Positions 15,227 to 62,304 of a stretch of DNA of 64,000 nt are shown piece after piece (position 1 is the stretch's first letter; every line of letters begins with the position of its first letter). The translations under genes were made by a program, and so were the position numbers. The stretch is from assembly GCA_029219245.1 (NCBI GenBank), contig JAQXTA010000040.1, forward strand, positions 1 through 64,000. The letters run 5' to 3'. The notes beneath the pieces were generated by a model. It had not been told where the DNA came from. It searched no databases and saw nothing but the letters and a program-made list of their open reading frames with translations. The DNA comes from Lachnospiraceae bacterium (GTDB taxonomy: Bacteria > Bacillota > Clostridia > Lachnospirales > Lachnospiraceae).

Positions 15227-16927
15227 CTAGCATTCTCCCGCCTCGGCATTCGTATAATACGATTCCAGCTTATCCCGGCTCATAATAAATACCGGTTCCA
15301 GACTTGGATCGAAATGACTTCCCATGGATTCTATGATAATTTCATAAGCTTTTGAAAAACTCATTGCCTCTTTATAACACCGCTTACTTACCAAAGCATC
15401 ATAAACATCCGCAATCGCCATAATTCTGGCTTCTAATGGAATATGTTCGCCGGATAACCCCTTTGGATATCCCATCCCATTCCATTTTTCATGATGATAT
15501 CTTGCTACATTTACTGCAACATTTACAAAATATTCTTCTTCTACACCCCTTAAAATCCTTTCGATAATTTCTGCGCTCTTTTCCGCATGTGTTTTCATAA
15601 TCTCAAACTCTTCGTCCGTAAATCTCCCCGGCTTTTGCAAGATTCTATCTTCAATGGAAATTTTCCCCAAGTCATGCATTGGCGCAGCCTTAATCAAATC
15701 CCTGCAAAACTCATCTGATAATTCCAAAAGATGATTTTCTTTAATGGTTTCCACCAATATTCCAACTACATCACTGGTTCTCTTGATGTGGCCACCTGTA
15801 TTATTGTCTCTGTTTTCTACCATACTTGCCATACCAAGCACCGTTTTCTGCTGAATTAGATAAATATGCTGTATCTGCTGTTCTACCTGCTGCTTTAATT
15901 TTGCATTGTAGTCGGACAACAAATCCAAATATTTCTTCCGGTCAGTACAATCCTGCAATTCAATAATATAACCTGTATTCTTCTTGCCGGTAGTTAATAC
16001 TTTAATGACACATTCATAATAAGAAGCCTTATATTGCAACGTTTTTGCAAAAGTAGAACCTTCGCTATCTTTAAAAAGCTTAATCCACTCACACAAAAAG
16101 TCTAATTCCTTTTCCTGCGAAATAAAGGTATCCACCTTACAATCGGCCAAACCAGGAATACATTCTTTTGCTATTTCGTTGCAGCCAATAAACTTATTAT
16201 TCAAATCAAGCACGATATAGCCTGTTGTATTATTCTGTTGCATTGCTACATAAATACTATCCTCTAAGTTATACTGAGATAACTGCATCTGAATAATCAC
16301 CAAAATAAGACCATCCACAACATATACTGCGGGCATGATTTCAAAAGTCGGGTCGATTGCTCTTCCCAGCAAAAATGCAATAATTGTGATACATTGCATT
16401 GCAATTAGCAGATATAAATTCTTTTTTGTTACCTGCTTCTTGATGAAGGCAATGATGGTAATAGCAATATTCACAGCCATGTAGCCATACAAAATAATAT
16501 AAAAAAAGCAATATCCCGGTCCATGTTCCACAATCAAAGCCGTTGCATCATATACTTTACCCATTCGTATACTCGAATAATAAAAATTGGAAAAACCGGC
16601 AGTCAGTACCATTACATATACCATAGCAGAAAAAAAGATACATAAACACCGAAGCCAATGTTTTAATTTAATATTGCATATCGAGCACATGCAGACAGCT
16701 ATAATTGGCGGTAAAAAACATCCCCCAAGATAAGTTATCTTTTTTGCTAATACGGCTTCTTCTAATGTACTGCTCACGCCTAATGCCAAATAGCCCAGAT
16801 TTGCCACACACACTACAATAAGTAATATTTTTATATAATAATTTGTTTTTTTCTCATTATCTCGGAATATGAAGACAGCCAGATTTAAAAAAGATAAAAT
16901 GGCTGTAACAAAGTAATAACTTCTCAT
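15227..16927 (-). CDS. Membrane PAS/HD-GYP protein (cyclic-di-GMP phosphodiesterase type)
   Basis: 566 residues. The first 220 hold seven to eight membrane segments resembling a histidine-kinase 7TM sensor domain. A PAS-like domain follows (YIVLDLNNKFIGCNEIAKEC to YIIELQDCTDRKK), then a coiled coil and an HD-GYP domain: APMHDLGKISIEDRIL contains the HD pair, HHEKWNGMGYPKG the GYP motif, and IADVYDALVSKRCY the distal motif. These enzymes hydrolyse cyclic-di-GMP; all key residues look intact. GGAGGG precedes the ATG. It stands alone, with a terminator-like hairpin before it (17012-17036) that closes the previous transcription unit. Confidence 0.92.
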   Translation of the reverse strand: MRSYYFVTAILSFLNLAVFIFRDNEKKTNYYIKILLIVVCVANLGYLALGVSSTLEEAVLAKKITYLGGCFLPPIIAVCMCSICNIKLKHWLRCLCIFFSAMVYVMVLTAGFSNFYYSSIRMGKVYDATALIVEHGPGYCFFYIILYGYMAVNIAITIIAFIKKQVTKKNLYLLIAMQCITIIAFLLGRAIDPTFEIMPAVYVVDGLILVIIQMQLSQYNLEDSIYVAMQQNNTTGYIVLDLNNKFIGCNEIAKECIPGLADCKVDTFISQEKELDFLCEWIKLFKDSEGSTFAKTLQYKASYYECVIKVLTTGKKNTGYIIELQDCTDRKKYLDLLSDYNAKLKQQVEQQIQHIYLIQQKTVLGMASMVENRDNNTGGHIKRTSDVVGILVETIKENHLLELSDEFCRDLIKAAPMHDLGKISIEDRILQKPGRFTDEEFEIMKTHAEKSAEIIERILRGVEEEYFVNVAVNVARYHHEKWNGMGYPKGLSGEHIPLEARIMAIADVYDALVSKRCYKEAMSFSKAYEIIIESMGSHFDPSLEPVFIMSRDKLESYYTNAEAGEC

Positions 16928-33605: not shown

Positions 33606-34940
33606 CTACTGTTTCACCGTCATAACACTCATATACGCCGGACGAATAATCTTATCCGCTGTTATCATTTCTTCAATACGATGGGCACTCCAGCCAACAA
33701 TTCGTGCCGTTGCAAAAATTGCAGTATATAGCTCCATAGGTATTCCTAACATCTCATAAACAAAACCACTATAAAAATCAACATTAGGACTTACCCCTTT
33801 TTGTATATGGCGTTTCCGTGCAATTAACACCGGAGCTACTTCTTCTATCGTGTTATACAAGAGCAAGTCTTTCTCTTTTTTCTTTTCCATTGCCAGTTTT
33901 TCTACATAACCTTTGAAAACACGCTCTCTTGGATCGGACAATGAATAAACCGCATGTCCCATGCCATATATGAGTCCTTTACCGTCGAAGGCTTCTCCAT
34001 CCAGTATTTTACTTAAATAGGCAGCAATTTCTTCCTGATCCTCCACATCCTGAATGTGTGCTTTGATATCCGCTATCATTTCCATTACTTTCATATTGGC
34101 TCCGCCATGCTTCGGTCCCTTCAGAGAAGACATCGCTGCCGCCATTGTGGAATAGGTATCCGAACCTGACGAAGTGACAACTCTGGTAGTAAAAGTAGAA
34201 TTGTTCCCTCCGCCATGTTCCATATGTAAAATCAATGCAGTATCCAAAACCTTAGCTTCCACCGGAGTAAACTGTTTATCCTGTCGCATCATCATTAACA
34301 GATTCTCTGCAGTAGAAAGATTCGGGTCGGGATGATGAATAAACATACTTTCATCCTTTTCATAATGATTGTAGGCATTATATCCATACACCGCTAACAA
34401 TGGGAATTCACTAATCAGCTGTATACACTGCCGCAGAGAATTGCTCACACTGGCATCCTTTGCATTCTTATCGTAGGAGGCAAGCGTTAAAATACTCCTG
34501 GTCATAGAATTCATAATGTCTTCCGTAGGTGCTTTCATAATGACATCCCTTGTAAAATTGGTCGGAAGCATACGACACTGTCCAATGAACCGCTTAAATT
34601 CCTTTTCCTGCTCCTCTGACGGCATTTCTCCCATCAAAAGCAGGTAAGCAATTTTTTCAAAACCAAGTTCATTACTTCCCAGACTGTTAATTAAATCTTC
34701 TACCTTATATCCCCGATACCACAATTCTCCATCACAGGGAACTTTCTTTCCTCCTATATTCCGGGAAGAAACGATTTTGGATATATTGGTAAGCCCGGTC
34801 AGTACACCATTTCCTTTTTCATCACGAAGTCCCTGATTTACTCCGTATTCTTCATAAAGTCGTGGTGCGATGGTATCATTTTCCCGGCACACTGCTTCTT
34901 TTTGTTTTGCATATTCATTCAAAGAATTCATTGTATTCAT
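33606..34940 (-). CDS. gltA: Citrate synthase
   Basis: About 444 residues, condensing acetyl-CoA and oxaloacetate. The active-site residues are visible: His in LHMEHGGGNNSTF, His in LKGPKHGGANMKV and Asp in GVSPNVDFYSGFVYEML. The N-terminal extension (KQKEAVCRENDTIAPRLYEEYGV) is typical of clostridial type II enzymes. No aconitase or isocitrate dehydrogenase genes are in the window, though in these bacteria citrate synthase feeds glutamate synthesis. The start (34940, GAGGGG upstream) overlaps the end of the MarR gene by 26 bp, so the two are co-expressed. Confidence 0.96.
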   Translation of the reverse strand: MNTMNSLNEYAKQKEAVCRENDTIAPRLYEEYGVNQGLRDEKGNGVLTGLTNISKIVSSRNIGGKKVPCDGELWYRGYKVEDLINSLGSNELGFEKIAYLLLMGEMPSEEQEKEFKRFIGQCRMLPTNFTRDVIMKAPTEDIMNSMTRSILTLASYDKNAKDASVSNSLRQCIQLISEFPLLAVYGYNAYNHYEKDESMFIHHPDPNLSTAENLLMMMRQDKQFTPVEAKVLDTALILHMEHGGGNNSTFTTRVVTSSGSDTYSTMAAAMSSLKGPKHGGANMKVMEMIADIKAHIQDVEDQEEIAAYLSKILDGEAFDGKGLIYGMGHAVYSLSDPRERVFKGYVEKLAMEKKKEKDLLLYNTIEEVAPVLIARKRHIQKGVSPNVDFYSGFVYEMLGIPMELYTAIFATARIVGWSAHRIEEMITADKIIRPAYMSVMTVKQ

Positions 34941-35481
34941 CCTGCCCCTCTCTTCCTTCCATCTCACTGCTCATAATCGTTTCCAACTGCTTCATTAACT
35001 GTAACAGCAATACCAGATTTTCTTTTCCATATTGTCCGATGACACATTCATAAAATTTTTTTAGAATATCCTCCTGCTCCTTAAAAAGCCTCTGTCCGGT
35101 TTCCGTAATTGTCACATAAGTTCCTTCACTTCCGTTTCCGTCATGCGACCATACCAATAAACCTCTGTCTTTTAAATTGCCAACCATTTTCGATGTCTGT
35201 CTGATAGAAAGCTGCATTTTATCTGCCAGTTCCTTTAAATAAGTTCTTCCGGAATAAATTTCCGATGTTTCATTGGTTGCGGAAATAATGTGCAAGGCGA
35301 TATATTCCGGTGCACTGATTTCCCGGAAAAGCTTCTGTATCTGGTCTTTATTCATAAGGTATCTGCGATACGTCAACTCATTTGACAGTTTTGTAATATC
35401 ATCTTTGGTAATTTTATCCTTACTAATGTTACCTTTTGTTATCATTTCCCTTTTTTTCTGTATTTCTTTCTCTTCCTGCAT
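34915..35481 (-). CDS. MarR-family transcriptional regulator
   Basis: 188 residues with a winged-helix domain: EYIALHIISATNE, LADKMQLSIRQTSKMVGNLKDRGLL and GTYVTITETGQRLF are the helix-turn-helix and wing. A Lys-rich N-terminal extension (about 35 residues) precedes it. AAGGGG precedes the ATG. It is the first gene of a two-gene operon with citrate synthase and has a strong promoter upstream; autoregulation is likely, and control of citrate synthase is inferred from position. Confidence 0.88.
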   Translation of the reverse strand: MQEEKEIQKKREMITKGNISKDKITKDDITKLSNELTYRRYLMNKDQIQKLFREISAPEYIALHIISATNETSEIYSGRTYLKELADKMQLSIRQTSKMVGNLKDRGLLVWSHDGNGSEGTYVTITETGQRLFKEQEDILKKFYECVIGQYGKENLVLLLQLMKQLETIMSSEMEGREGQDEYNEFFE

Positions 35482-35558
35482 TTTCTTCCCCTTCCTTCTC
35501 CTTAGAACCTAAAACCAAGTCTAGTCTTTTTTAATTTTAAACTGTTTGTTTTTAAACT

Positions 35559-35586
35559 ATTATAGAGAAAAAAAATTACTTGTCAA
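35559..35586 (-). promoter_or_regulatory. Promoter of the MarR-citrate synthase operon
   Basis: TTGACA (35586-35581), 16-base spacer, TATAAT (35564-35559) on the minus strand. Just downstream lie two TTTAAAC repeats and the small palindrome AAACTGTTT, a likely MarR-binding region. Confidence 0.7.
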
Positions 35587-35614: not shown

Positions 35615-36070
35615 TCATTCTTTTTTATTTTCCTCCTGTTTCATCATTCGTTCCATGTTTTTTCCCATTTTCCCTGCAATTCTTTTCAATTCCTCCATCT
35701 CTTCTTTCGTGATTCCCATAAACAGCTCCTGTGTCAGTTCATTCCACTTTCTGGTTATTTCCTGAACGATTTCTTTGGCGGTTTCTGTAATGTGGTAGTG
35801 TACATATCTGCGGTCTGCAGTATCCGGAATCGCCACCAAATAATTTCGTTTGCACAAATTGTCTACCGCTTGGGAAATATGACCTTTGTTTGCTTTCAGC
35901 CGTCTGCAGATATCTGCTGAAGTATTATTCTCTCCCGCTTTTGACAAAAAATATAAAATTTCTATTTCAATTCTTTTTAAATCATAGCTCTTCCGGATTT
36001 CCGCCATTTCACATTCATTCAATTTTTTAAACTGGCTTCCCCGCAGTAATATTTCAATTTTTTCTTCCAC
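35615..36070 (-). CDS. MarR-family regulator of the phosphorelay operon
   Basis: About 151 residues with the MarR winged helix (EIEILYFLSKAGENNTSADIC, RLKANKGHISQAVDNLCKRNYL, DTADRRYVHYHITETAK). The best start is GTG at 36070, with AGGAG seven bases upstream; an in-frame ATG at 36142 would need a long basic extension and run into the preceding gene. It lies 40 bp after the HD-GYP gene, the last of five same-strand genes. A role in controlling the operon is inferred. Confidence 0.85.
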   Translation of the reverse strand: MEEKIEILLRGSQFKKLNECEMAEIRKSYDLKRIEIEILYFLSKAGENNTSADICRRLKANKGHISQAVDNLCKRNYLVAIPDTADRRYVHYHITETAKEIVQEITRKWNELTQELFMGITKEEMEELKRIAGKMGKNMERMMKQEENKKE

Positions 36071-36110
36071 CACTTTGCTCCTAACCAATCTTATCAATAT
36101 CCGTCTGTTT

Positions 36111-38036
36111 TTACACACACCCCCAACTGTTGGTAATACCACGCACTGTTTCCTTTACCACAAATGCGTGCAATGGCTTCGTTAAATAATCATCGATGCC
36201 AAGTTCGCTGATTTTCTGTATTGTTTCTATACACCGGTCGGCTGTCACGAGCACAACGGGAATGTGATATTTTTCCCGAATCATCTGATAAAGTTCAAAT
36301 CCATCCGCATCAGGCATCTTTAAATCCAACAGAATGAGATGCATCTCCTGTTCTTCTAATGCATGGAAGGTTTCTTCTTTCGTCATCGCACCAATTACCC
36401 GGAAATCCGGTTCATCTTTCAGTATATGTTGTACCATCCTGATATTCATAATTTCATCATCAACTACCAGAATATTTTTTCTGCCTCCTTCTGACTGACA
36501 CATGGAATAATCCTTATCTTCATCAATCATTTGAAGCATGATATCTGCGATCGTTGCATCAAACTGCTGTCCCCGTCCTTTTTCTATTTCTGAACGTACG
36601 ACCTGCTGGGGCAAGGCATTACGATAGCTACGGTTGCTTGCCATCGCATCATACGCATCTGCTACGCCAATGATTCTGGCAATCTCCGGTATGTTTTCTC
36701 CCTCCAATCCATTGGGATATCCTTTCCCGTTATATCGCTCGTGATGATATTTGGCACCATAAGCAACTCTCTCGTCTTCATGAATATCTTTCAAAATATG
36801 ATACCCACTGACCGGATGAACTTTAATCTGATCAAACTCCTCCTCTGTCAATTTGCCCGGCTTATTGATTACTTCTTCCGGAACTCTTATCTTTCCTACA
36901 TCATGCAACAAACCTGCATAATAAATCGTCTTCTGTTCCTCTTCCGATTTCCCCATTCGCTTTGCAATCGCGAGAGAATAGTCCGCAACTCTTTGTGAAT
37001 GACCGCTTGTATAGCGGTCTTTTGCATCAATCGTAGATGCCAGCGCACGAATAATATTTGTGTTCATACGCTCAAGCTTTTCCCGGCTTTCATATTCTTT
37101 TTGCTGATATTTACCGATCTTCTTTGCAGAAACGGCACAAAATACTACAACAATCAAAAACACCACAACGGATACCAAAACACCAATCATCATCTGTGTT
37201 CTCAGGTCATGGAACAGCTTCGTATTGCTGACAATCATTACAACATACCAGTCATTCATGACCTGATTGGAGAAAACCGTACAGTTCTCTCCATTGATTG
37301 TCATCCCAAAACTCTCCTGCTTATTATCAAAGATTTGATGCAACATTTCCTCCTGCTCTTCATTTACAGGGTAAATCTTACCTTTCTCTGATTTTTCAAA
37401 ATGAGCAATAACTAATCCTGTACTATCCATGATAAAACCATAACCCATACCGTTCATTGTCATGTCTTCTGTAATGGCCTGCACCTCATTCAAAGCGACG
37501 TCTAACGATACCACGCTTTCTCCATCCGAAAGCAGTTGACTTACAGAAAACATAACCGTATTTGTCTGTGCATCCAAATATGGCGGAACAATGGTTGCCT
37601 CACCGTCTGCTTCTTTGGCTGCAATATACCAGTCCCTCTCCGTCGGGACATAATCTTCCGGAGGAATCCATCCAATCCCATCCAGATATTCTCCATTAAT
37701 ATAGCCATAGATTCCTGTGAAATTCTCATCAATCTGCTGGGTTTCATGCTCTGCTTCTGTCGTCAGATACTGTAATATTTCATCGGAAGATGCACTATTT
37801 TGCAACATATAATTTACGGTGTCCGCTGTTACCCACAACACATCCATACTTTTATTCAGATAGTTTTCAATCATTGCTGCTTCACTCTTCATGTTACTGA
37901 CACCCAGCTCCTCAATACGAGTCACAGAGCTATGATAAAAAGAAGTAAAGATGTAAGTGACCATGAAAACCAAAAGACAAAAGACCGTTATAATAGTTAT
38001 TAAGAATTGTTTTAAAATAGTATTTTTTGCTCCCAT
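36111..38036 (-). CDS. Membrane sensor HD-GYP protein with C-terminal receiver
   Basis: 641 residues: membrane helix, an extracellular dCache-like domain (residues about 35-280), a second membrane helix (MMIGVLVSVVVFLIVVVFC), HD-GYP domain (HD in AGLLHDVGKIRVPEE; GYP in HHERYNGKGYPNG; VADAYDAMASNRSY) and a C-terminal REC domain (VVDDE near residue 525; phospho-acceptor Asp in ILLDLKMPDADG; Lys in DDYLTKPL). HD-GYP enzymes degrade cyclic-di-GMP. Receivers are usually N-terminal in this class, so the order here is unusual. It is the probable output of the kinase upstream, 34 bp away. Confidence 0.93.
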   Translation of the reverse strand: MGAKNTILKQFLITIITVFCLLVFMVTYIFTSFYHSSVTRIEELGVSNMKSEAAMIENYLNKSMDVLWVTADTVNYMLQNSASSDEILQYLTTEAEHETQQIDENFTGIYGYINGEYLDGIGWIPPEDYVPTERDWYIAAKEADGEATIVPPYLDAQTNTVMFSVSQLLSDGESVVSLDVALNEVQAITEDMTMNGMGYGFIMDSTGLVIAHFEKSEKGKIYPVNEEQEEMLHQIFDNKQESFGMTINGENCTVFSNQVMNDWYVVMIVSNTKLFHDLRTQMMIGVLVSVVVFLIVVVFCAVSAKKIGKYQQKEYESREKLERMNTNIIRALASTIDAKDRYTSGHSQRVADYSLAIAKRMGKSEEEQKTIYYAGLLHDVGKIRVPEEVINKPGKLTEEEFDQIKVHPVSGYHILKDIHEDERVAYGAKYHHERYNGKGYPNGLEGENIPEIARIIGVADAYDAMASNRSYRNALPQQVVRSEIEKGRGQQFDATIADIMLQMIDEDKDYSMCQSEGGRKNILVVDDEIMNIRMVQHILKDEPDFRVIGAMTKEETFHALEEQEMHLILLDLKMPDADGFELYQMIREKYHIPVVLVTADRCIETIQKISELGIDDYLTKPLHAFVVKETVRGITNSWGCV

Positions 38037-38070
38037 ATTTTTTCTCTCCGACGTGATAGTCTACTGTAGT

Positions 38071-40590
38071 TTATTCTGCTGCTTTTAATATTTTTTCTGC
38101 TTCCAGAACCGTCTCCTTGTATAAATTCATTACATCATTATGATGTTCTTTTACAAATACCTTCTCTCTCTCAGCCTGGCTCGATTCCCGAATCACTTTT
38201 CCTGCAGCTTCCAGTTCCTTTGCGGCTTTGGAAAGCTGCTCCCCTCCAATGTTCAGCGATGTGGATTTTAATCCATGTACAAAAACCGTATAATTTTCCC
38301 AATCTTCCGACTGGAATGCCTCCGTTATCTTCGTAACATGTTCCTCATAACTATTACAGAATAATGCAAGCATTTCCCGATAGAACTCTTTACTGCCTGC
38401 ACAATATTGTAACCCCGTTTCTGTATTGATATAGGCTGTAGAATCACACGTTTCCGATTGGCTATTGTCATTCTCATGAGCTGACTCTTCCTGTGACTGA
38501 CTCACCTTATCCCCGGGAAGATATTGCAATAGCATTTTTTCCAACGCTGTTCCCTCAATCGGTTTCGATAAATAATCAGAAAAGCCCGCTTTTATGTATT
38601 CTTCTTTCGCACCTACAATGGCATTTGCCGTCAATGCGATAACCGGTGTGGACTGACATTTATTTTCCGATTGTTTCAGTCTTGCAAGAGTTTCAATACC
38701 ATCCATCTCCGGCATCATGTGGTCGAGCAAAATTACATCAAAAGATTCCTTTGCTACCATTTCCAAACATTCTCTGCCACTCATACAGGTTGTAATCTGC
38801 ATTTTCGTATTTTTCAGAAGGGCTTTCACGACTGCCAGATTCATCTCGTTATCATCTACTACAAGCACCTTTGCATCCGGTGCAAGGAAACTTTCCCGGT
38901 ATTTTTCTCCTTGTTTTGCCACCTCTTGAAATTTCTGTTTGAAATCACCAATTGGCGTATCATCTCTTACCTCTTGAGTCAGATAAACGGTAAACACTGA
39001 ACCTTTCCCATACTCACTGGAAACCTCCATGCGCCCATTCATTTGTTCCACTAAGCTGTGAGTAATTGCCAGGCCAAGTCCTGTCCCCTCAATGCTGCGA
39101 TTCTGTTCCAGCTCCAACCGCTGAAAGCCTTCAAAAAGCTTATTTAAGTCTTCCTTTTTTATACCGATTCCACTGTCAGACACCTGCATCTTAAGGGTAA
39201 AGACATTTTCTTCCTCAATTCCCTCTACCTGAAGCTTCACCCTGCCTTGCTTGGTATATTTCACTGCATTGTTCAAAATATTTACAATAATCTGACGATT
39301 ACGAACTTCATCCCCATAAAGTACCGAAGGCAGCTCTGGATCAATTTCCACTTCAAAATCAAGCTGTTTTTGTTTTGCTTTAATTCCTATCATATTTACT
39401 ACATCATTAAAAAAAACTGCTGTTTCATAAGGAGCAGGAATAATTTCCATTTTCCCTGCTTCTATTTTGGAAAAGTCCAAAATATCATTTATCAACGATA
39501 ACAAAGTCTTACTGGCACTTTGAATATTCACTGCAAATGCTCTTACTTCCTCATCCTTACTCTCCCTTAATACCATTTCATTCATACCCATTATGGCATT
39601 AATGGGCGTACGGATTTCATGAGACATATTCGCAAGGAAATCGCTTTTGGCACGATTTGCCTGCTCGGCCATTTTTTTAGCTTCTCTAAGCTCATCACTT
39701 TCTCTAACTTTTTCTTCTGCGCTAAGCAGATACACCATTCCGATTACAAACAGAAGTATCAATAAACCAAATACCCATAGTATCAATGCTGTAATGGTTT
39801 CGATACCGTCCGTCAGAGTAGCCTCCGGCACAGTACCTACCAAATATATCCCAAACTGCTTTATCTCCGATGTAAATAAAAAATGTCCACCTTTTTCGTC
39901 TTTATAATAAATTGTTGCAGCCGTATCAACATTCATTTTCTCTGCTAATTTCAACAAGCCATCTTTTACAACATCCAGATTTAGAAATTCTGTTGTAAGA
40001 GCCTTTGAATCCGAAAGAGGAATGATTACCTGCCCCTCTTTATCGATAATCGTTACCTCTGCCTGCCCATCGTAGCAGGTTATTCCAAATTCCTTCAATA
40101 AAGCACTATCATCATACAGCTTATATAACGTATATCTAACGTTTTCTCCATCAAAAATAGGTGTTGTGAAAAGAATCCCCTGCCCCTCTTTGTAACACAC
40201 CGAGGAATTCCCACGAAATGCATTCTGTATTCCCGGGAAATCCGAAAAGTTCAGCGCAGGACCCACCAATGCTGTTCCATCCAGGCATAAAAGTCCCATC
40301 GTCACATTTTCCTTATCCCCAATAACCATATCCAAAATGGCCGCATCCGTCGTTGCATCAGAGGATATATTTTTCGCAATGCTTTCCAGATTATGGATCT
40401 CCAGATCGAACTGTTCTGAAGAAAGAGCAGCCAATGTTCTCGCCTGTTCCGTAACCTGCTTCTCCACATAATTTTGTATGAAGCTTTTCAATCTGAAGTT
40501 CATCAAAGCACCTACGCTGCCCATAATGATGATAACCGTAATCAGAACTATGATGATTCTGTATTTTCCATTTATCCACTTATTTATCAT
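38071..40590 (-). CDS. Hybrid sensor histidine kinase with receiver and Hpt domains
   Basis: 839 residues: membrane helix, dCache-like extracellular domain (about 35-265), membrane helix (ITALILWVFGLLILLFVIGM), HisKA (phospho-His near residue 323 in FLANMSHEIRTPINAI), HATPase (ILNNAVKYT; DSGIGIKKED; GTGLGLAIT), REC (VLVVDDNEMNLAVV; Asp in VILLDHMMPEMDG) and a C-terminal Hpt domain with His772 in FVHGLKSTS. All phosphotransfer residues are present. The gene overlaps the preceding binding-protein gene by 11 bp. I infer that it passes phosphate from its Hpt to the receiver of the HD-GYP protein. Confidence 0.95.
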   Translation of the reverse strand: MINKWINGKYRIIIVLITVIIIMGSVGALMNFRLKSFIQNYVEKQVTEQARTLAALSSEQFDLEIHNLESIAKNISSDATTDAAILDMVIGDKENVTMGLLCLDGTALVGPALNFSDFPGIQNAFRGNSSVCYKEGQGILFTTPIFDGENVRYTLYKLYDDSALLKEFGITCYDGQAEVTIIDKEGQVIIPLSDSKALTTEFLNLDVVKDGLLKLAEKMNVDTAATIYYKDEKGGHFLFTSEIKQFGIYLVGTVPEATLTDGIETITALILWVFGLLILLFVIGMVYLLSAEEKVRESDELREAKKMAEQANRAKSDFLANMSHEIRTPINAIMGMNEMVLRESKDEEVRAFAVNIQSASKTLLSLINDILDFSKIEAGKMEIIPAPYETAVFFNDVVNMIGIKAKQKQLDFEVEIDPELPSVLYGDEVRNRQIIVNILNNAVKYTKQGRVKLQVEGIEEENVFTLKMQVSDSGIGIKKEDLNKLFEGFQRLELEQNRSIEGTGLGLAITHSLVEQMNGRMEVSSEYGKGSVFTVYLTQEVRDDTPIGDFKQKFQEVAKQGEKYRESFLAPDAKVLVVDDNEMNLAVVKALLKNTKMQITTCMSGRECLEMVAKESFDVILLDHMMPEMDGIETLARLKQSENKCQSTPVIALTANAIVGAKEEYIKAGFSDYLSKPIEGTALEKMLLQYLPGDKVSQSQEESAHENDNSQSETCDSTAYINTETGLQYCAGSKEFYREMLALFCNSYEEHVTKITEAFQSEDWENYTVFVHGLKSTSLNIGGEQLSKAAKELEAAGKVIRESSQAEREKVFVKEHHNDVMNLYKETVLEAEKILKAAE

Positions 40591-41680
40591 AAAATTCTAC
40601 ACCTTCTACATACCAGTCAAACTGTTCTAACAAAATCTCATCCCGAATCGTTTCCTTTTCTTTGCAGCGAAGATTTCCTTCATTATCATATATGACTCCC
40701 GAAAAAACATCCCGCCCTGCCAATATCTGATTGGTAGCCCTGTTCACTTCATCTTTTATATCTTCTGAGACAGCTCCTGAAAAATCAGCCAGCTTCACTG
40801 CATTTTCTTCCATGCCTACCCAATAGACTTTGATGTTTGCTGAGTTTCCTCTTAAATACTGTCTGATAATTGCTTCATAGGTCAGTTTCCAGTCTCCTAC
40901 GACTGCCGTCAGGTATTTATCGGAAACATTTTCCAGCCTTTGATGATAGCCAATGGAATAAATGTTGGCCTTTTCTGCTTCTTCCACCACATATGCCTGA
41001 TTTTGGTGATATGTAATAACATCCACTCCTGTGTTCTCAATCAGATTGTCTGCCTGCTTTCTTTCTTCATCCTCATTATCCCATGCATTGCTCCATGCCA
41101 CCGTTACAACCGCTTTGGGATTTACTCGCCTGACACCTAAAGTAAATGCATTAATACCACGATTGACTTCACTGGTTGGCATAGCTGCCACATAACCTAT
41201 CTTATTGGTTTCTGTCTGCATTCCCGCTACAATTCCCGCCAGATAACGGGCCTGATACATTCTGGAAAAATAAGAGGTCACATTGTCTGCATGATAATTA
41301 AAAGAATTACAATAAAAAGATACCTCCGGATATTTTTGAATAATATCCTTCCCTTCTTCCACATAACCGTAACTCGTCAAAATAATCATCTTACATCCCT
41401 GATTCACGAGATCCTCTATCGCCGGCCCGCATTCTCCTTGAAATTCCCTGATGTTTTCCTTTACCCGAAGCTCTACACCAAGCTCTTCACATGCTGCTGA
41501 TACCCCCTCATAATGCATACCATTCCAGCCTTGTTCATCCATGGAACCCGTTATGATAAAACCTATTTTTTCTTTTTGGGTATAGGTTTTACCCATAAAA
41601 AGCAATAGCGCCACAATAACGATAAACACCATTGCAAATATGATTAATAGTATCTTTCTCTTCTTCTTATTCAGCTTCAT
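40580..41680 (-). CDS. BMP/PnrA-family binding protein, membrane-anchored (second copy)
   Basis: About 366 residues: an N-terminal membrane anchor (ILLIIFAMVFIVIVALLLFMG) without a lipobox Cys, then a two-lobed periplasmic-binding fold of the BMP (PnrA-like) family (IGFIITGSMDEQGWNGMHYEG; VNRGINAFTLGVRRVNPKA). BMP proteins usually bind nucleosides for ABC uptake; none of those transporter genes occur here. It overlaps the upstream paralogue by 14 bp and the kinase by 11 bp, which points to a sensory role. GGGG lies before the ATG at 41680. Confidence 0.9.
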   Translation of the reverse strand: MKLNKKKRKILLIIFAMVFIVIVALLLFMGKTYTQKEKIGFIITGSMDEQGWNGMHYEGVSAACEELGVELRVKENIREFQGECGPAIEDLVNQGCKMIILTSYGYVEEGKDIIQKYPEVSFYCNSFNYHADNVTSYFSRMYQARYLAGIVAGMQTETNKIGYVAAMPTSEVNRGINAFTLGVRRVNPKAVVTVAWSNAWDNEDEERKQADNLIENTGVDVITYHQNQAYVVEEAEKANIYSIGYHQRLENVSDKYLTAVVGDWKLTYEAIIRQYLRGNSANIKVYWVGMEENAVKLADFSGAVSEDIKDEVNRATNQILAGRDVFSGVIYDNEGNLRCKEKETIRDEILLEQFDWYVEGVEFYDK

Positions 41681-42767
41681 CAATCACTACCCCTTCTACA
41701 TACCAGAAAAAATCATTCAGCATAGTAGCATCTGTCATACTTTCGCCTTCCTTTACCCGTAGATTCCCTTCATTATCCACAACCGGTCCATAAAACACAT
41801 CGAAGGTTCCACTCATCAGGCGGGCACGCGCCTCCTCCACCTTTTGGGCAATTCCCGGCTTGACATTCTCGGTAAGCGGCGCAAGATCCACAATACCGGT
41901 TTCAACCCCTTCCCAATAATGTATTCCTTGGAATTTTCCTTGCAGACACTCTAAAATTCTCGGTTCATAGAAGCATTCCCAGTTCCAGACAGGCGCCGTC
42001 AAATAGGTAGACGGAAATTTATCGCTGTTGTCCACATTATACCCAATGGTCCATATTCCATTTTCATCCGCAATTTTCAGAGGTGCCATAGCATCTGTAT
42101 GCATGGCCAGTACATCAATATTATGCTCCCCTATTAATTTTGTAGTTGCCTCAGCATTTTCTTCTTCTCCCGTCCAAGAATTACTCCACTTTACATAAAC
42201 GGTTGCTTCCGGATTAACCGACCTTACCCCTAACGCAAAGGCATCAATTCCCCTGTTTACCTCCGCAATGGGAAGAGCCGCCACATACCCAATCTCATTT
42301 GTCTCCGTCTGCATTCCCGCTACGATTCCGCTCAAATATCGCATCTGGTATATTCGCCCAAAATAAGTTGCCAGATTATCTGCCTGTTCCACCCCTGTAG
42401 CATGAAAGAAATAGACCTCCGGATGCTCTTTCGCACATTCCAGTTCCCAGGTACCATAGCCAAAAGAATTGCAAATGACAATTTTACATCCATCTGCAAT
42501 CAATTCCTCCATCACTTCTACCGAATTTTCATCCTCTGGAACATTTTCCTTATATATTATATTCAGATTCAATTCCTTTGCACTGATTTCCATCCCATTA
42601 TAATGAGATTCTCCCCAACTATGATCATCTACCGTACCATTCAGTATAAAACCAACTTTGGTTTGTGTCTTTGTTATATCCGTTTCCTGCTGATTAATGC
42701 GTATCCAAAATATACCTGCAACAATAATACAGGCAAAAATAAGTATCGTTGCCAAAATCTTTTTCAT
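41667..42767 (-). CDS. BMP/PnrA-family binding protein, membrane-anchored (first copy)
   Basis: 366 residues, the same architecture as its neighbour: membrane anchor (ILATILIFACIIVAGIFWIR), then a BMP domain (VGFILNGTVDDHSWGESHYNG; MQTETNEIGYVAALPIAEV; EVNRGIDAFALGVRSVNPEA). It is closely similar to the next gene in the core motifs, indicating duplication. It is the first gene of the operon, with GAGG before the ATG and a good promoter 80-110 bp upstream. The ligand is unknown; nucleoside is the family default. Confidence 0.9.
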   Translation of the reverse strand: MKKILATILIFACIIVAGIFWIRINQQETDITKTQTKVGFILNGTVDDHSWGESHYNGMEISAKELNLNIIYKENVPEDENSVEVMEELIADGCKIVICNSFGYGTWELECAKEHPEVYFFHATGVEQADNLATYFGRIYQMRYLSGIVAGMQTETNEIGYVAALPIAEVNRGIDAFALGVRSVNPEATVYVKWSNSWTGEEENAEATTKLIGEHNIDVLAMHTDAMAPLKIADENGIWTIGYNVDNSDKFPSTYLTAPVWNWECFYEPRILECLQGKFQGIHYWEGVETGIVDLAPLTENVKPGIAQKVEEARARLMSGTFDVFYGPVVDNEGNLRVKEGESMTDATMLNDFFWYVEGVVIDEAE

Positions 42768-42850: not shown

Positions 42851-42879
42851 ATTATACCTTGTTATGGTAGGAAGTGTAA
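42851..42879 (-). promoter_or_regulatory. Promoter of the binding-protein/kinase operon
   Basis: TTACAC (42879-42874), 17-base spacer, TATAAT (42856-42851) on the minus strand, 84 bp before the first ATG. Confidence 0.6.
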
Positions 42880-42946
42880 ACTACCCAAAAGAATAAAACT
42901 GAAATATCTCCAGTTTTTGACGAAATTTTTCCTTTTAAAAAAGTAC

Positions 42947-59615: not shown

Positions 59616-60632
59616 ATGGCAACGATTAAAGAAATTGCAGCACTTGCAGGCGTATCACGCGGCACTGTAGACCGTGTTCTGAATCACCGCGGTGCAGTGA
59701 ATCCTCAGACAGCCGAAAAGATACTGGAAATTGCACAAGCTCTAGATTATAAACCCAACAAAGCCGGTATCGTTCTTGCTGCCCAGAAACGCAGGCTGAA
59801 AATTGGTGTTGTGCTGCTTGGTCAGAACAATCCTTTTTATGACGATGTCCTTCGCAGCATCATGGAAAAAGCCACCGAATTAGAAAGCTACAACTGCACT
59901 GTCGTAATCCGCCAAACCGATTACAATCTGGAAGAACAGCTCCTTGCCATTGATGAACTTGTTTCCGAAGGTATCAACGGACTCGCTCTGTCTCCTTATA
60001 ATGCCAATGCTATCCGTTGTAAAATTGATGAATTATACGAAAAAGGTATTCCGGTTGTTACATTGAATACTGATATTGAAAATTCCAAACGAATTGCTTA
60101 TGTTGGCAGCAATTATTATCTTTCCGGTCAAACTGCCGGTGGTCTAATGCATCTTGTGACCTCCGGACAGGTTTATATCGGCATCGTCTCAGGTTCCCAG
60201 AATATTCTCTGTCATACCGAACGTATTGCCGGTTTTCACAGCGTAATAGACAACTATGAAAATATGCATATTTCCGCCACTATCATGAATCAGGATGATG
60301 ATTTTGAAAGCTACGAGCTGACTTCCCGACTGTTAAAGGCACATCCCGAAATCAATGCCCTATACTTTGCCGCAGGCGGTGTCTACGGTGGTTGTCGCGC
60401 TGTAGTTGCCTCCGGCAGACAGTATGATATTAAAATCATTACCTATGACATGGTAGAAACTACACAAAAAATGATAAAACAAGGACTGATAGCAGCAACC
60501 ATCTGCCAACAGCCCTTGTTACAAGGCTCTAAGCCTCTTGATATTCTGTTTGCAAATCTGACTACGGGAGAATCTCCTCAATCAGAGTACAATTATGTGG
60601 ATGTTGACATCCGTATCAAAGAGAATCTTTGA
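59616..60632 (+). CDS. LacI-family transcriptional regulator of the sugar operon
   Basis: 338 residues: the LacI helix-turn-helix (ATIKEIAALAGVSRGTVDRVLNHRG) and a ribose-type periplasmic-binding domain (IGVVLLGQNNPFYDDVLRSI; VTLNTDIENSKRIAYVGSNYY). The VSRGTVDRVLNxRG version is common for sugar regulators in this family. AAGGAG precedes the ATG. It diverges from the kinase operon across the palindrome at 59358-59371, which is its probable target. Its end overlaps the following convergent gene by 17 bp. Confidence 0.93.
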   Translation: MATIKEIAALAGVSRGTVDRVLNHRGAVNPQTAEKILEIAQALDYKPNKAGIVLAAQKRRLKIGVVLLGQNNPFYDDVLRSIMEKATELESYNCTVVIRQTDYNLEEQLLAIDELVSEGINGLALSPYNANAIRCKIDELYEKGIPVVTLNTDIENSKRIAYVGSNYYLSGQTAGGLMHLVTSGQVYIGIVSGSQNILCHTERIAGFHSVIDNYENMHISATIMNQDDDFESYELTSRLLKAHPEINALYFAAGGVYGGCRAVVASGRQYDIKIITYDMVETTQKMIKQGLIAATICQQPLLQGSKPLDILFANLTTGESPQSEYNYVDVDIRIKENL

Positions 60633-62304
60633 GGTATTTTTCCTCAAATTCCTCTGCGGAGCAAGGTTTTCCAAAAAGATAACCCTGAATCATATCCGGG
60701 TTGGCTCTTTTCATTTTTTCCAATTCATGCTCGTATTCAATGCCTTCCATACAAACCGATGAACCGATGCTATGCACCATATCGATGATATATCGAATTA
60801 CGGTATAGTCATATTCGTTTTCAAGTGCCTGTAATACAAAACTCCGGTCAATCTTAACTGTCTTTGCTGAAATATCCTCCAGATAACGCATATTGGAATA
60901 TCCGGTTCCAAAATCATCTATGGCAAGGCTGATGTTTTTCTCTTTCAGCTCCTGAAACAAATCCATAATACGGCTGTCCGTTTCAATATAACCGCTTTCC
61001 GTCAATTCCAGTACCAGACTATTCGGCTCAATTCCAACCTCCTTGATACACCGGTCTACATCGTGCATTAAATCACTCTTCCGAATCTGTACATAAGACA
61101 AATTGACATTCACATGAAAATCCGGTATCGTTTTTTGCCATTTCTTACAGGTTCTGGCGGCTTCCCAAAGTACATATCTTCCTACCGGAATAATCAAACC
61201 ACTTTCTTCCATAATCGGAATAAAAACAGCCGGAGAAACATTTCCATACTTCTCATCCTTCCAGCGAAGCAATGCCTCCGCCCCAATGAGCTTATAGGTA
61301 TTGGCATCCACAATCGGCTGGTAAAATACCTGAAAACCATGAAAATCGTTTGCAATATCCAGCCGGATTGCTTTTCGAATACTTAAACGCTTCAAATATT
61401 CATTATAGGCATTCCGGTCGAACAGAGCCATCTGGTTTCTGCCGTTTCTCTTTGCCTCATTTAATGCGAACTCCGTTAAACGCAAGATATCTTCACTCTT
61501 CTTGCCGACAAATTCCTCTTCCTGTTCCAAAACGCCTGCGGAAACGGTGTAAAATCCTGTATATTCCTTCTTCCGTACCATTTCGGCGACCTTACGCTTA
61601 ATGCATTGATAAATGTCCGCTGCCTTGTCCGTTGATTCTGGACAGGCATCCACAATCATAAATTCATCCGCTACCAGACGGTAAATGTCCACTCCCGAAT
61701 GAACGGTCTCGATAATGCAGTCTGCCAGTTCATGTAAAATGTTATCCCCCGCATCCAGTCCGTCTTTCTCATTGATTTCTTTAAAATTATCAATACCGAT
61801 GCGCATACAATACTTAATGGCCTGCGGATTTTTGGTAAGAATCCGGTCAATATCCTCGCGGAAACGCACTTCTTTCCTAAGACCAGTAACATTGTCCGCC
61901 TTCGCCTTCTTCCCGATTTCCCTCACTCTTCCTACCAGCAGATAGTGATTATCATCGGAAATCACAACGGTGCCGCGGCATTCAATCCATACAACCTGTT
62001 TGTCCCGACTGCACCAGCGGTATTCCATATTATGAAGCGTCTGTTTGCCGCTTGCGCACCGCTCTATATCTTTCGACAGTTCATCGTAATCATCCGGATG
62101 TACAATCTCTTTCAATACAGCACTGCAATTTTCCACATGAACAGACGGAAAGGCAAAACGTCTTACTGCTGACTGTGAAACCATCATTATATCATAGCTC
62201 AAATCCAAAACATAAAAATAAGAATCCGATGCCTTCTGGATAATCTCAAGAACTTCTATAATTTCTTCCAACGATATTCTTTGCCTAATTCCCTGTTCTT
62301 TCAT
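60616..62304 (-). CDS. PAS-GGDEF-EAL protein with a degenerate GGDEF motif
   Basis: 562 residues: a PAS domain (residues about 15-130; FYVLDLSYDIMMVSQ), a GGDEF domain in which the signature reads VADEF instead of GGDEF, so cyclase activity is unlikely, and an intact EAL domain (AEALLRW; LELTESGY; IDDFGTGYSN; KIDRSFV; GYLFGKP). It should hydrolyse cyclic-di-GMP, possibly with GTP acting as an activator at the degenerate domain. AAGGATG precedes the ATG. A palindromic operator covers its -35. Confidence 0.9.
   Translation of the reverse strand: MKEQGIRQRISLEEIIEVLEIIQKASDSYFYVLDLSYDIMMVSQSAVRRFAFPSVHVENCSAVLKEIVHPDDYDELSKDIERCASGKQTLHNMEYRWCSRDKQVVWIECRGTVVISDDNHYLLVGRVREIGKKAKADNVTGLRKEVRFREDIDRILTKNPQAIKYCMRIGIDNFKEINEKDGLDAGDNILHELADCIIETVHSGVDIYRLVADEFMIVDACPESTDKAADIYQCIKRKVAEMVRKKEYTGFYTVSAGVLEQEEEFVGKKSEDILRLTEFALNEAKRNGRNQMALFDRNAYNEYLKRLSIRKAIRLDIANDFHGFQVFYQPIVDANTYKLIGAEALLRWKDEKYGNVSPAVFIPIMEESGLIIPVGRYVLWEAARTCKKWQKTIPDFHVNVNLSYVQIRKSDLMHDVDRCIKEVGIEPNSLVLELTESGYIETDSRIMDLFQELKEKNISLAIDDFGTGYSNMRYLEDISAKTVKIDRSFVLQALENEYDYTVIRYIIDMVHSIGSSVCMEGIEYEHELEKMKRANPDMIQGYLFGKPCSAEEFEEKYLKDSL

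Follow-up and report, generated by a model that had tools for sequence, protein, structure and literature searches.

In the XylFII-LytS, LuxP-LuxQ and TorT-TorS systems, a bilobal binding protein acts on the ectodomain of a sensor kinase; XylFII is membrane-anchored, and the ectodomain of LuxQ is a tandem PAS fold. Solved structures of such binding protein–kinase complexes are reported in PMC6321045, and a 2022 survey (PMC9602780) puts the characterised cases of sensor-kinase activation by a binding protein at only about ten. On the output side, the dCache kinase AsrK of Vibrio furnissii phosphorylates the adjacently encoded HD-GYP regulator AsrR and so sets cyclic di-GMP (c-di-GMP), phosphorylation lowering AsrR activity and the unphosphorylated form being more active (PMC11796354), while dCache_1PU receptors change c-di-GMP via a diguanylate cyclase when purines are present outside the cell (PMC11245519). 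Here we describe a locus in a 64,000-nucleotide stretch of a Lachnospiraceae genome (hereafter, the window) that encodes two BMP-family binding proteins, a hybrid histidine kinase and an HD-GYP protein, and which we regard as a candidate purine-base sensor acting on c-di-GMP.

As in the three kinase systems above, we propose that a bilobal binding protein acts on a kinase ectodomain, and the window binding proteins are encoded beside the kinase without a transporter, as in the LuxPQ type. The locus differs from XylFII-LytS, LuxPQ and TorTS in its use of a BMP-family pair, both anchored N-terminally by a transmembrane (TM) helix, in an Hpt domain within the kinase, and in outputs that are c-di-GMP enzymes. 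It resembles AsrK-AsrR in pairing a predicted dCache kinase with a neighbouring HD-GYP protein that the kinase would control; however, AsrK binds autoinducer-2 (AI-2) directly, and AsrR consists of REC and HD-GYP only. The BMP-family protein AtzT is periplasmic and thought to serve uptake, whereas the window BMPs are anchored, tandem and kinase-linked; in dCache_1PU receptors it is the dCache itself that binds the purine, a role proposed here for the separate BMP pair. Both halves of the system have known counterparts. Searches of open-licence literature, judged by titles and the beginnings of abstracts, turned up no description of a module of BMP, kinase and c-di-GMP enzyme, nor of anchored paired BMPs joined to an Hpt-bearing dCache kinase with c-di-GMP outputs that vary.

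All genes of the locus lie on the minus strand. BMP1 (41667..42767; Pfam Bmp E 1e-46, 159.8 bits against a gathering score of 24.1) overlaps by 14 bp with BMP2 (40580..41680, ATG at 41680; E 7e-50, 170.1 bits against 24.1), and the end of BMP2 at 40580 overlaps by 11 bp with the kinase gene (38071..40590), which starts with an ATG at 40590. By Pfam and fold prediction, the 839-residue kinase consists of a TM segment, a dCache-fold ectodomain, a second TM segment and a HisKA-HATPase_c-REC-Hpt core. After a gap of 34 bp (38037-38070) follows a dCache-TM-HD-GYP-REC protein of 641 residues (36111..38036; HD_5 E 1e-38, plus REC) and, beyond it, a MarR-family gene. The five-gene layout given in an earlier note on this DNA, with overlaps of 14 and 11 bp and gaps of 34 and 40 bp, was located as claimed (the last gap counting from the second GTG of the MarR gene), and Pfam recovered every domain the note had named: two BMPs, the HisKA/REC/Hpt kinase, the HD-GYP protein with REC, and MarR.

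When searched at E 1e-20, BMP2 matched 176 of 299 family genomes, mostly through weaker BMP paralogs, and 15 genomes of the family besides the window genome reached E 4.5e-89 or better and supplied kinase-linked units for reading; a genus sample gave a match in 47 of 60 genomes, again chiefly to paralogs. The comparison of loci rests on the best 80 of 294 relatives from a scan with a BMP1 alignment, nearly all of them metagenome bins (62 Lachnospiraceae, five Eubacteriaceae, four Oscillospiraceae, four from single other families, five without a family). Kinases of the same type follow the BMP genes in 74 of these 80 loci, and the remaining six stretches (L164, L167, L175, L193, L196, L199) break off ahead of the kinase gene or within it; in 17 of the 74, one flank is shorter than 2 kb, leaving 49 two-BMP and eight single-BMP loci as evaluable. 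Beyond Lachnospiraceae, one further family of the phylum has the tandem BMP pair with the same kinase, in three genomes (L253-L256). What is conserved, mainly in Lachnospiraceae, is thus the unit BMP1-BMP2-kinase.

What follows this unit varies. The exact order BMP1-BMP2-kinase-dCache-HD-GYP-REC recurs in seven of the 74 loci (L132, L157, L169, L173, L174, L177, L191), a further six place an HD-GYP-REC protein lacking the dCache after the kinase (L126, L176, L182, L186, L188, L190), and in L124 the contig stops within the HD-GYP gene; conservation of the gene order, on which the earlier note had staked its interpretation, was borne out in some relatives as far as the HD-GYP gene. Elsewhere the HD-GYP gene lies upstream (G200 [L057], L170, L175), and there are close relatives of the window locus with no adjacent HD-GYP gene, for example L127, L129 and L133. 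The kinases of L123 and L124 are close on the tree (path 0.043), yet directly after its kinase gene L123 retains just 62 residues of the HD-GYP receiver (L123:14747-14932); if the bin is correct, this remnant marks a recent loss of the HD-GYP gene relative to L124. Because the gene set recurs in many species, it is not a chance assembly.

Both BMPs match PF02608 over the whole protein above the gathering score. Excluding segments shorter than 36 residues, a TM-like helix is present at the N-terminus of 79/79 BMP1 and 71/71 BMP2 proteins, and the lipobox pattern in none of either (0/79 and 0/71), a pattern that missed three of 20 lipoprotein-type loci. By sequence, the closest solved relatives of both proteins are AtzT (6pi5) and the Brucella BMP 3s99, and for BMP1 also by fold; nucleoside-binding PnrA is more distant. 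AtzT binds guanine and adenine with dissociation constants of 0.11 µM and 2.5 µM, as given in PMC6834077, and most of the purine-base pocket of AtzT and 3s99 (the aromatic residue, Ser, Glu and Trp) is kept, AtzT Asn218 being His in both BMPs. The pocket residues in question are W51, S101, E169, W198, H223 and D225 in BMP1, and W52, S103, E171, W200, H225 and N227 in BMP2; counting only BMPs that cover most of the domain, they are kept in 73-78 of 78 BMP1 and 67-68 of 68 BMP2 proteins of the main locus set. At the position of AtzT Asn220 the two differ systematically, with Asp225 in BMP1, as in 3s99, and Asn227 in BMP2, as in AtzT. Judged by this pocket, both BMPs probably keep purine bases as their ligand class, and the Asp/Asn difference suggests that BMP1 and BMP2 prefer different bases. 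Transporter-linked relatives, 37-46% identical to BMP1, point to the same ligand class: in a survey that named selected neighbouring genes (eight proteins), they have xanthine phosphoribosyltransferase (XPRTase; L257, L259), adenine deaminase (L261) or purine-nucleoside phosphorylase (L263) among their neighbours, and L045, a more distant BMP locus, likewise has an XPRTase. The "BMP/PnrA-like" label of the earlier note stands for the family, which Pfam supports; the lipobox of PnrA is missing here, AtzT and 3s99 are closer, and a PnrA-type nucleoside reading was downgraded after the fold and pocket comparison.

Residues for a complete phosphorelay are in place. In the kinase, the HisKA phospho-acceptor His324 (39619..39621) and REC Asp623 (38722..38724) are conserved in 27/27 kinases, and Hpt His772 (38275..38277) in 26/27, being replaced in one. 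In the HD-GYP protein, the predicted receiver phospho-acceptor Asp571 (36324..36326) is invariant in 22/22 HD-GYP-REC proteins, as are T598 and K620 of the same REC domain. The claim that all four phosphotransfer stations occur in this one locus was thereby upheld by residues aligned across relatives. Models for LuxQ and TorS also match the kinase core, with scores far below their own cut-offs. For the ectodomain (about residues 32-262; 39805..40497), a dCache fold is predicted; it gave no Pfam match over cut-off and no sequence match to any solved dCache. Its assignment as a known ligand-binding dCache was dropped, as such sequence matches were absent and the fold alone was obtained.

The catalytic domain of the output protein (PF13487; 36549..37043) carries H346, H378, D379, K382, H407, H431, H432, G439-Y440-P441 and D460, all invariant in the 22 HD-GYP-REC proteins, and the window protein is predicted to be a c-di-GMP phosphodiesterase. 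Its own dCache (37239..37889) falls narrowly below the Pfam cut-off for dCache_1 (43.7 against 45 bits) and gives profile matches to Mlp24, Mlp37 and PctA. Seven of its residues (Y129, R134, W136, Y137, Y153, D155, D179) are invariant or at least 90% conserved in 16 sequences, and they include what we take to be the motif positions of amino-acid receptors. This dCache seems to carry an amino-acid-receptor-like residue set, and its signal is probably an amino acid; the PctA motif residues R126, W128, Y129, Y121 and D173 are given in PMC10104139.

Counting a c-di-GMP enzyme as linked when it is fused or encoded in the same direction no more than 300 bp away, 31 of the 49 evaluable two-BMP loci are linked to one: HD-GYP alone in 21, GGDEF alone in seven, both in two, and HD-GYP plus EAL in one. 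This tally includes an EAL query and allows a start overlap of 250 bp, which adds L161 (30/49 before); the loci were annotated by BLAST, using domains of the window proteins and of their relatives as queries, and weak domains may have escaped. When whole same-strand runs of signalling genes are considered, 33/49 are linked (HD-GYP without GGDEF in 20, GGDEF without HD-GYP in seven, both in six). In L160 (12175-17703, one metagenome contig) the BMP-linked kinase, a second kinase-REC-Hpt-REC and a REC-HD-GYP form a single open reading frame (ORF) of 1842 residues. Catalytic motifs are intact in the linked HD-GYP proteins listed, and linked REC-GGDEF proteins carry (G/A)GDEF; the exception is the GGDEF-EAL protein of L054/L145, which is without a GGDEF motif. 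That protein, SBP_bac_3-GGDEF-EAL (Pfam for L054), lies immediately upstream of the BMP-kinase unit (L054:5352-8225, L145:6949-9822). A quickly built tree of the kinases (75 rows, some long branches) requires at least six changes of output kind if HD-GYP, GGDEF and both are treated as three states, and at least two between HD-GYP alone and GGDEF alone. An initial count of at least four such HD-GYP/GGDEF switches, based on the nearest gene only and including L145, fell to two with whole runs and L145 dropped; the lower count leaves our odds unaffected because each output kind occurs alone in different lineages.

Taken together, we consider it somewhat better than an even bet that this is a phosphorelay sensing extracellular purine bases and setting c-di-GMP, with the BMPs as co-receptors. 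BMP1 and BMP2 would be held at the outer membrane face by their N-terminal helices, acting as co-receptors rather than transporter parts, and each would close on a purine-type ligand. Loaded or empty, they may touch the dCache ectodomain of the kinase and shift its balance of kinase and phosphatase activity, upon which phosphate would pass from His324 to Asp623, next to Hpt His772 and finally to the receiver Asp571 of the HD-GYP protein encoded alongside, changing how actively this enzyme breaks down c-di-GMP. The HD-GYP protein may also read a second signal, probably an amino acid, through the dCache that it carries. A diguanylate cyclase would replace the HD-GYP protein, or join it, as the partner of this sensor in some relatives. 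Whereas gene content, linkage and repeated gene order, along with the residues, anchors and predicted folds, can be read from the loci, we infer the ligand, the BMP–kinase contact, the phosphotransfer and the direction of the response, and for the window strain we lean weakly towards the ligand lowering c-di-GMP. The earlier suggestion of a sensor that adjusts c-di-GMP to a small ligand, perhaps a nucleoside, accordingly keeps its first part, backed by enzyme linkage in 31/49 loci, with the nucleoside moved down in favour of a purine base. We also entertain, as an unlikely elaboration, a two-channel purine comparator in which the BMPs bind different bases, one kinase reads the balance, and the output is HD-GYP or GGDEF by lineage, so that the same purine signal would lower c-di-GMP in some species and raise it in others.

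Several observations weigh against the purine-sensing phosphorelay. A smaller second locus set keeps the BMP2 Asn in 15/18 and the BMP1 Asp in 21/23; the window BMPs have His, Gly and Arg at the positions of AtzT Asn218, Asn169 and Thr139, and BMP specificity may therefore differ from that of AtzT; and L258, a transporter-linked relative, has cytidine deaminase nearby instead of a purine enzyme. A close kinase homolog in G303 (L235:4609-7161) has no BMP match beside it. Eighteen of the 49 evaluable two-BMP loci have no adjacent c-di-GMP enzyme, nor do any of the eight evaluable single-BMP loci, seven of which carry a REC-only regulator of about 260-290 residues and one a methyl-accepting chemotaxis protein. 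As controls, we took other hybrid kinases from 40 selected regions of the window genome (G000) and the same-genus genomes G299-G304, G305, G306 and other genera contributing none, and removed row L235, which matched the sensor query. A c-di-GMP neighbour was present for 2/38 evaluable control kinases (9/51 overall), but for 2/13 evaluable and 9/22 overall among Hpt-bearing controls; with the loci being related and p only a guide, 31/49 differs from 2/13 (p 0.004) and not significantly from 9/22 (p 0.12). Since nine of 22 Hpt-bearing controls are linked too, an enrichment special to BMP kinases was not established. Seven of these nine share the layout REC-HD-GYP, Hpt kinase, ~890-residue kinase and are perhaps one orthologous operon; these bacteria may generally tend to couple Hpt-bearing hybrid kinases with c-di-GMP enzymes, the BMP system being one case.

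The BMPs might instead bind nucleosides, like PnrA, or another small heterocycle, with the remaining mechanism unchanged; we hold this to be rather unlikely. Rather unlikely, too, is that the BMP-kinase unit is a real sensor with another response regulator as its main output, the HD-GYP protein being driven chiefly by a different hybrid kinase of ~920 residues (HK2 type) or by its own dCache. HD-GYP homologs do adjoin HK2 in G094 and G086, HK2 adjoins the BMP kinase in L125 and L137, L126 has both, and the REC-only regulators of single-BMP loci recur in L253 and L255, from the other family of the phylum. Against it stand the repeated adjacency to several c-di-GMP enzyme architectures, the full fusion in L160, and the nearest HK2 relative in 13 sampled window-genome regions, L208, being just 46% identical in the sensor part; with the window genome (2.79 Mb, 73 contigs) about 90% complete, a closer HK2 may be missing from it. 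That the two BMPs serve uptake through an ABC transporter encoded elsewhere, and sit beside the kinase by chance or for co-regulation, is very improbable: BMP1 is 37-46% identical to transporter-linked BMPs, but TM anchors replace lipoboxes, a same-type kinase follows in 74/80 loci with the other six ending too early, and no BMP-type permease was found within 3 kb of any of the 74 kinase units. HK2 genes, a possible second input, were seen next to either the HD-GYP gene or the BMP-linked kinase gene at L126:15838-18615, L116:3636-6395, L117:3741-6515, L137:4594-7323 and L125:6199-6837.

To our knowledge, c-di-GMP in gut Clostridia has few known input signals. The purine-sensing phosphorelay yields a concrete prediction, namely which purine base each BMP binds, and the coupling of one conserved sensor to opposite c-di-GMP enzymes in different lineages offers a natural experiment. 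Although BMP proteins are usually annotated as components of transporters, the locus suggests a role for them as co-receptors anchored in the membrane.

The fifth gene, a winged-helix MarR-family regulator (35615..36070, minus strand, Pfam), is co-directional with the BMP-kinase unit. Its gap to the HD-GYP gene is 40 bp if the second GTG (36070), preceded by a GGAG at 7-8 nt, is taken as the start codon; the longest ORF called begins at 36142. As it has no match among the other ORFs of the annotated loci, the earlier inclusion of MarR in the system was not sustained, and we ruled it out as a component. Upstream of BMP1 lies a promoter-like site (TTTACA-18-TATAAT; 42851..42880, minus strand) matching 11/12 consensus positions, and a perfect 12/12 site (TTGACA-16-TATAAT) at 35586-35559 precedes the unit following MarR; such sites are no commoner in the region than chance (28 observed against 28.7 in shuffles). 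Behind the latter site, window positions 33606-35586 hold a MarR-like gene (NCBIfam only, weak) and a citrate synthase gene. The window genome contains 14 HD-GYP, 19 GGDEF, three PilZ and five Bmp matches (the last in four genes), and with so many HD-GYP, GGDEF and PilZ matches a c-di-GMP network is available to the HD-GYP enzyme. Two of these families recur within the window, as a further HD-GYP protein with a hydrophobic N-terminus (15227-16927) and a GGDEF protein whose motif is degenerate and which appears to include an EAL part (60616-62304).

BMP genes also occur in other arrangements. Lipoprotein-type BMP genes directly precede a gene for a methyl-accepting chemotaxis protein in L068 (1178-4129; G000:C56), L039, L040, L044, L046, L047, L051 and L082-L086, a second BMP–receptor pairing; the chemoreceptor of L068 carries sCache_3_3, and the other loci were recognised by sequence pattern. 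In L069 (1627-3624), L070 (1551-3659) and L088-L090, a BMP domain is fused to a cytosolic-looking N-terminal region, presumably ParB-like, in proteins of ~650-700 residues, followed in L070 by a metallophosphoesterase (Pfam) and in L088-L090 by similar genes, as seen by eye. Close to the L123 and L124 units, and by eye also to that of L064, there are ABC exporter-like genes. Finally, a regulator of ~265 residues (L106:4504-5304, L109:3727-4536, L253:10576-11373), in which no output domain was found, combines an N-terminal half that matched no recognised domain, and by eye resembles a degenerate receiver, with one REC domain.

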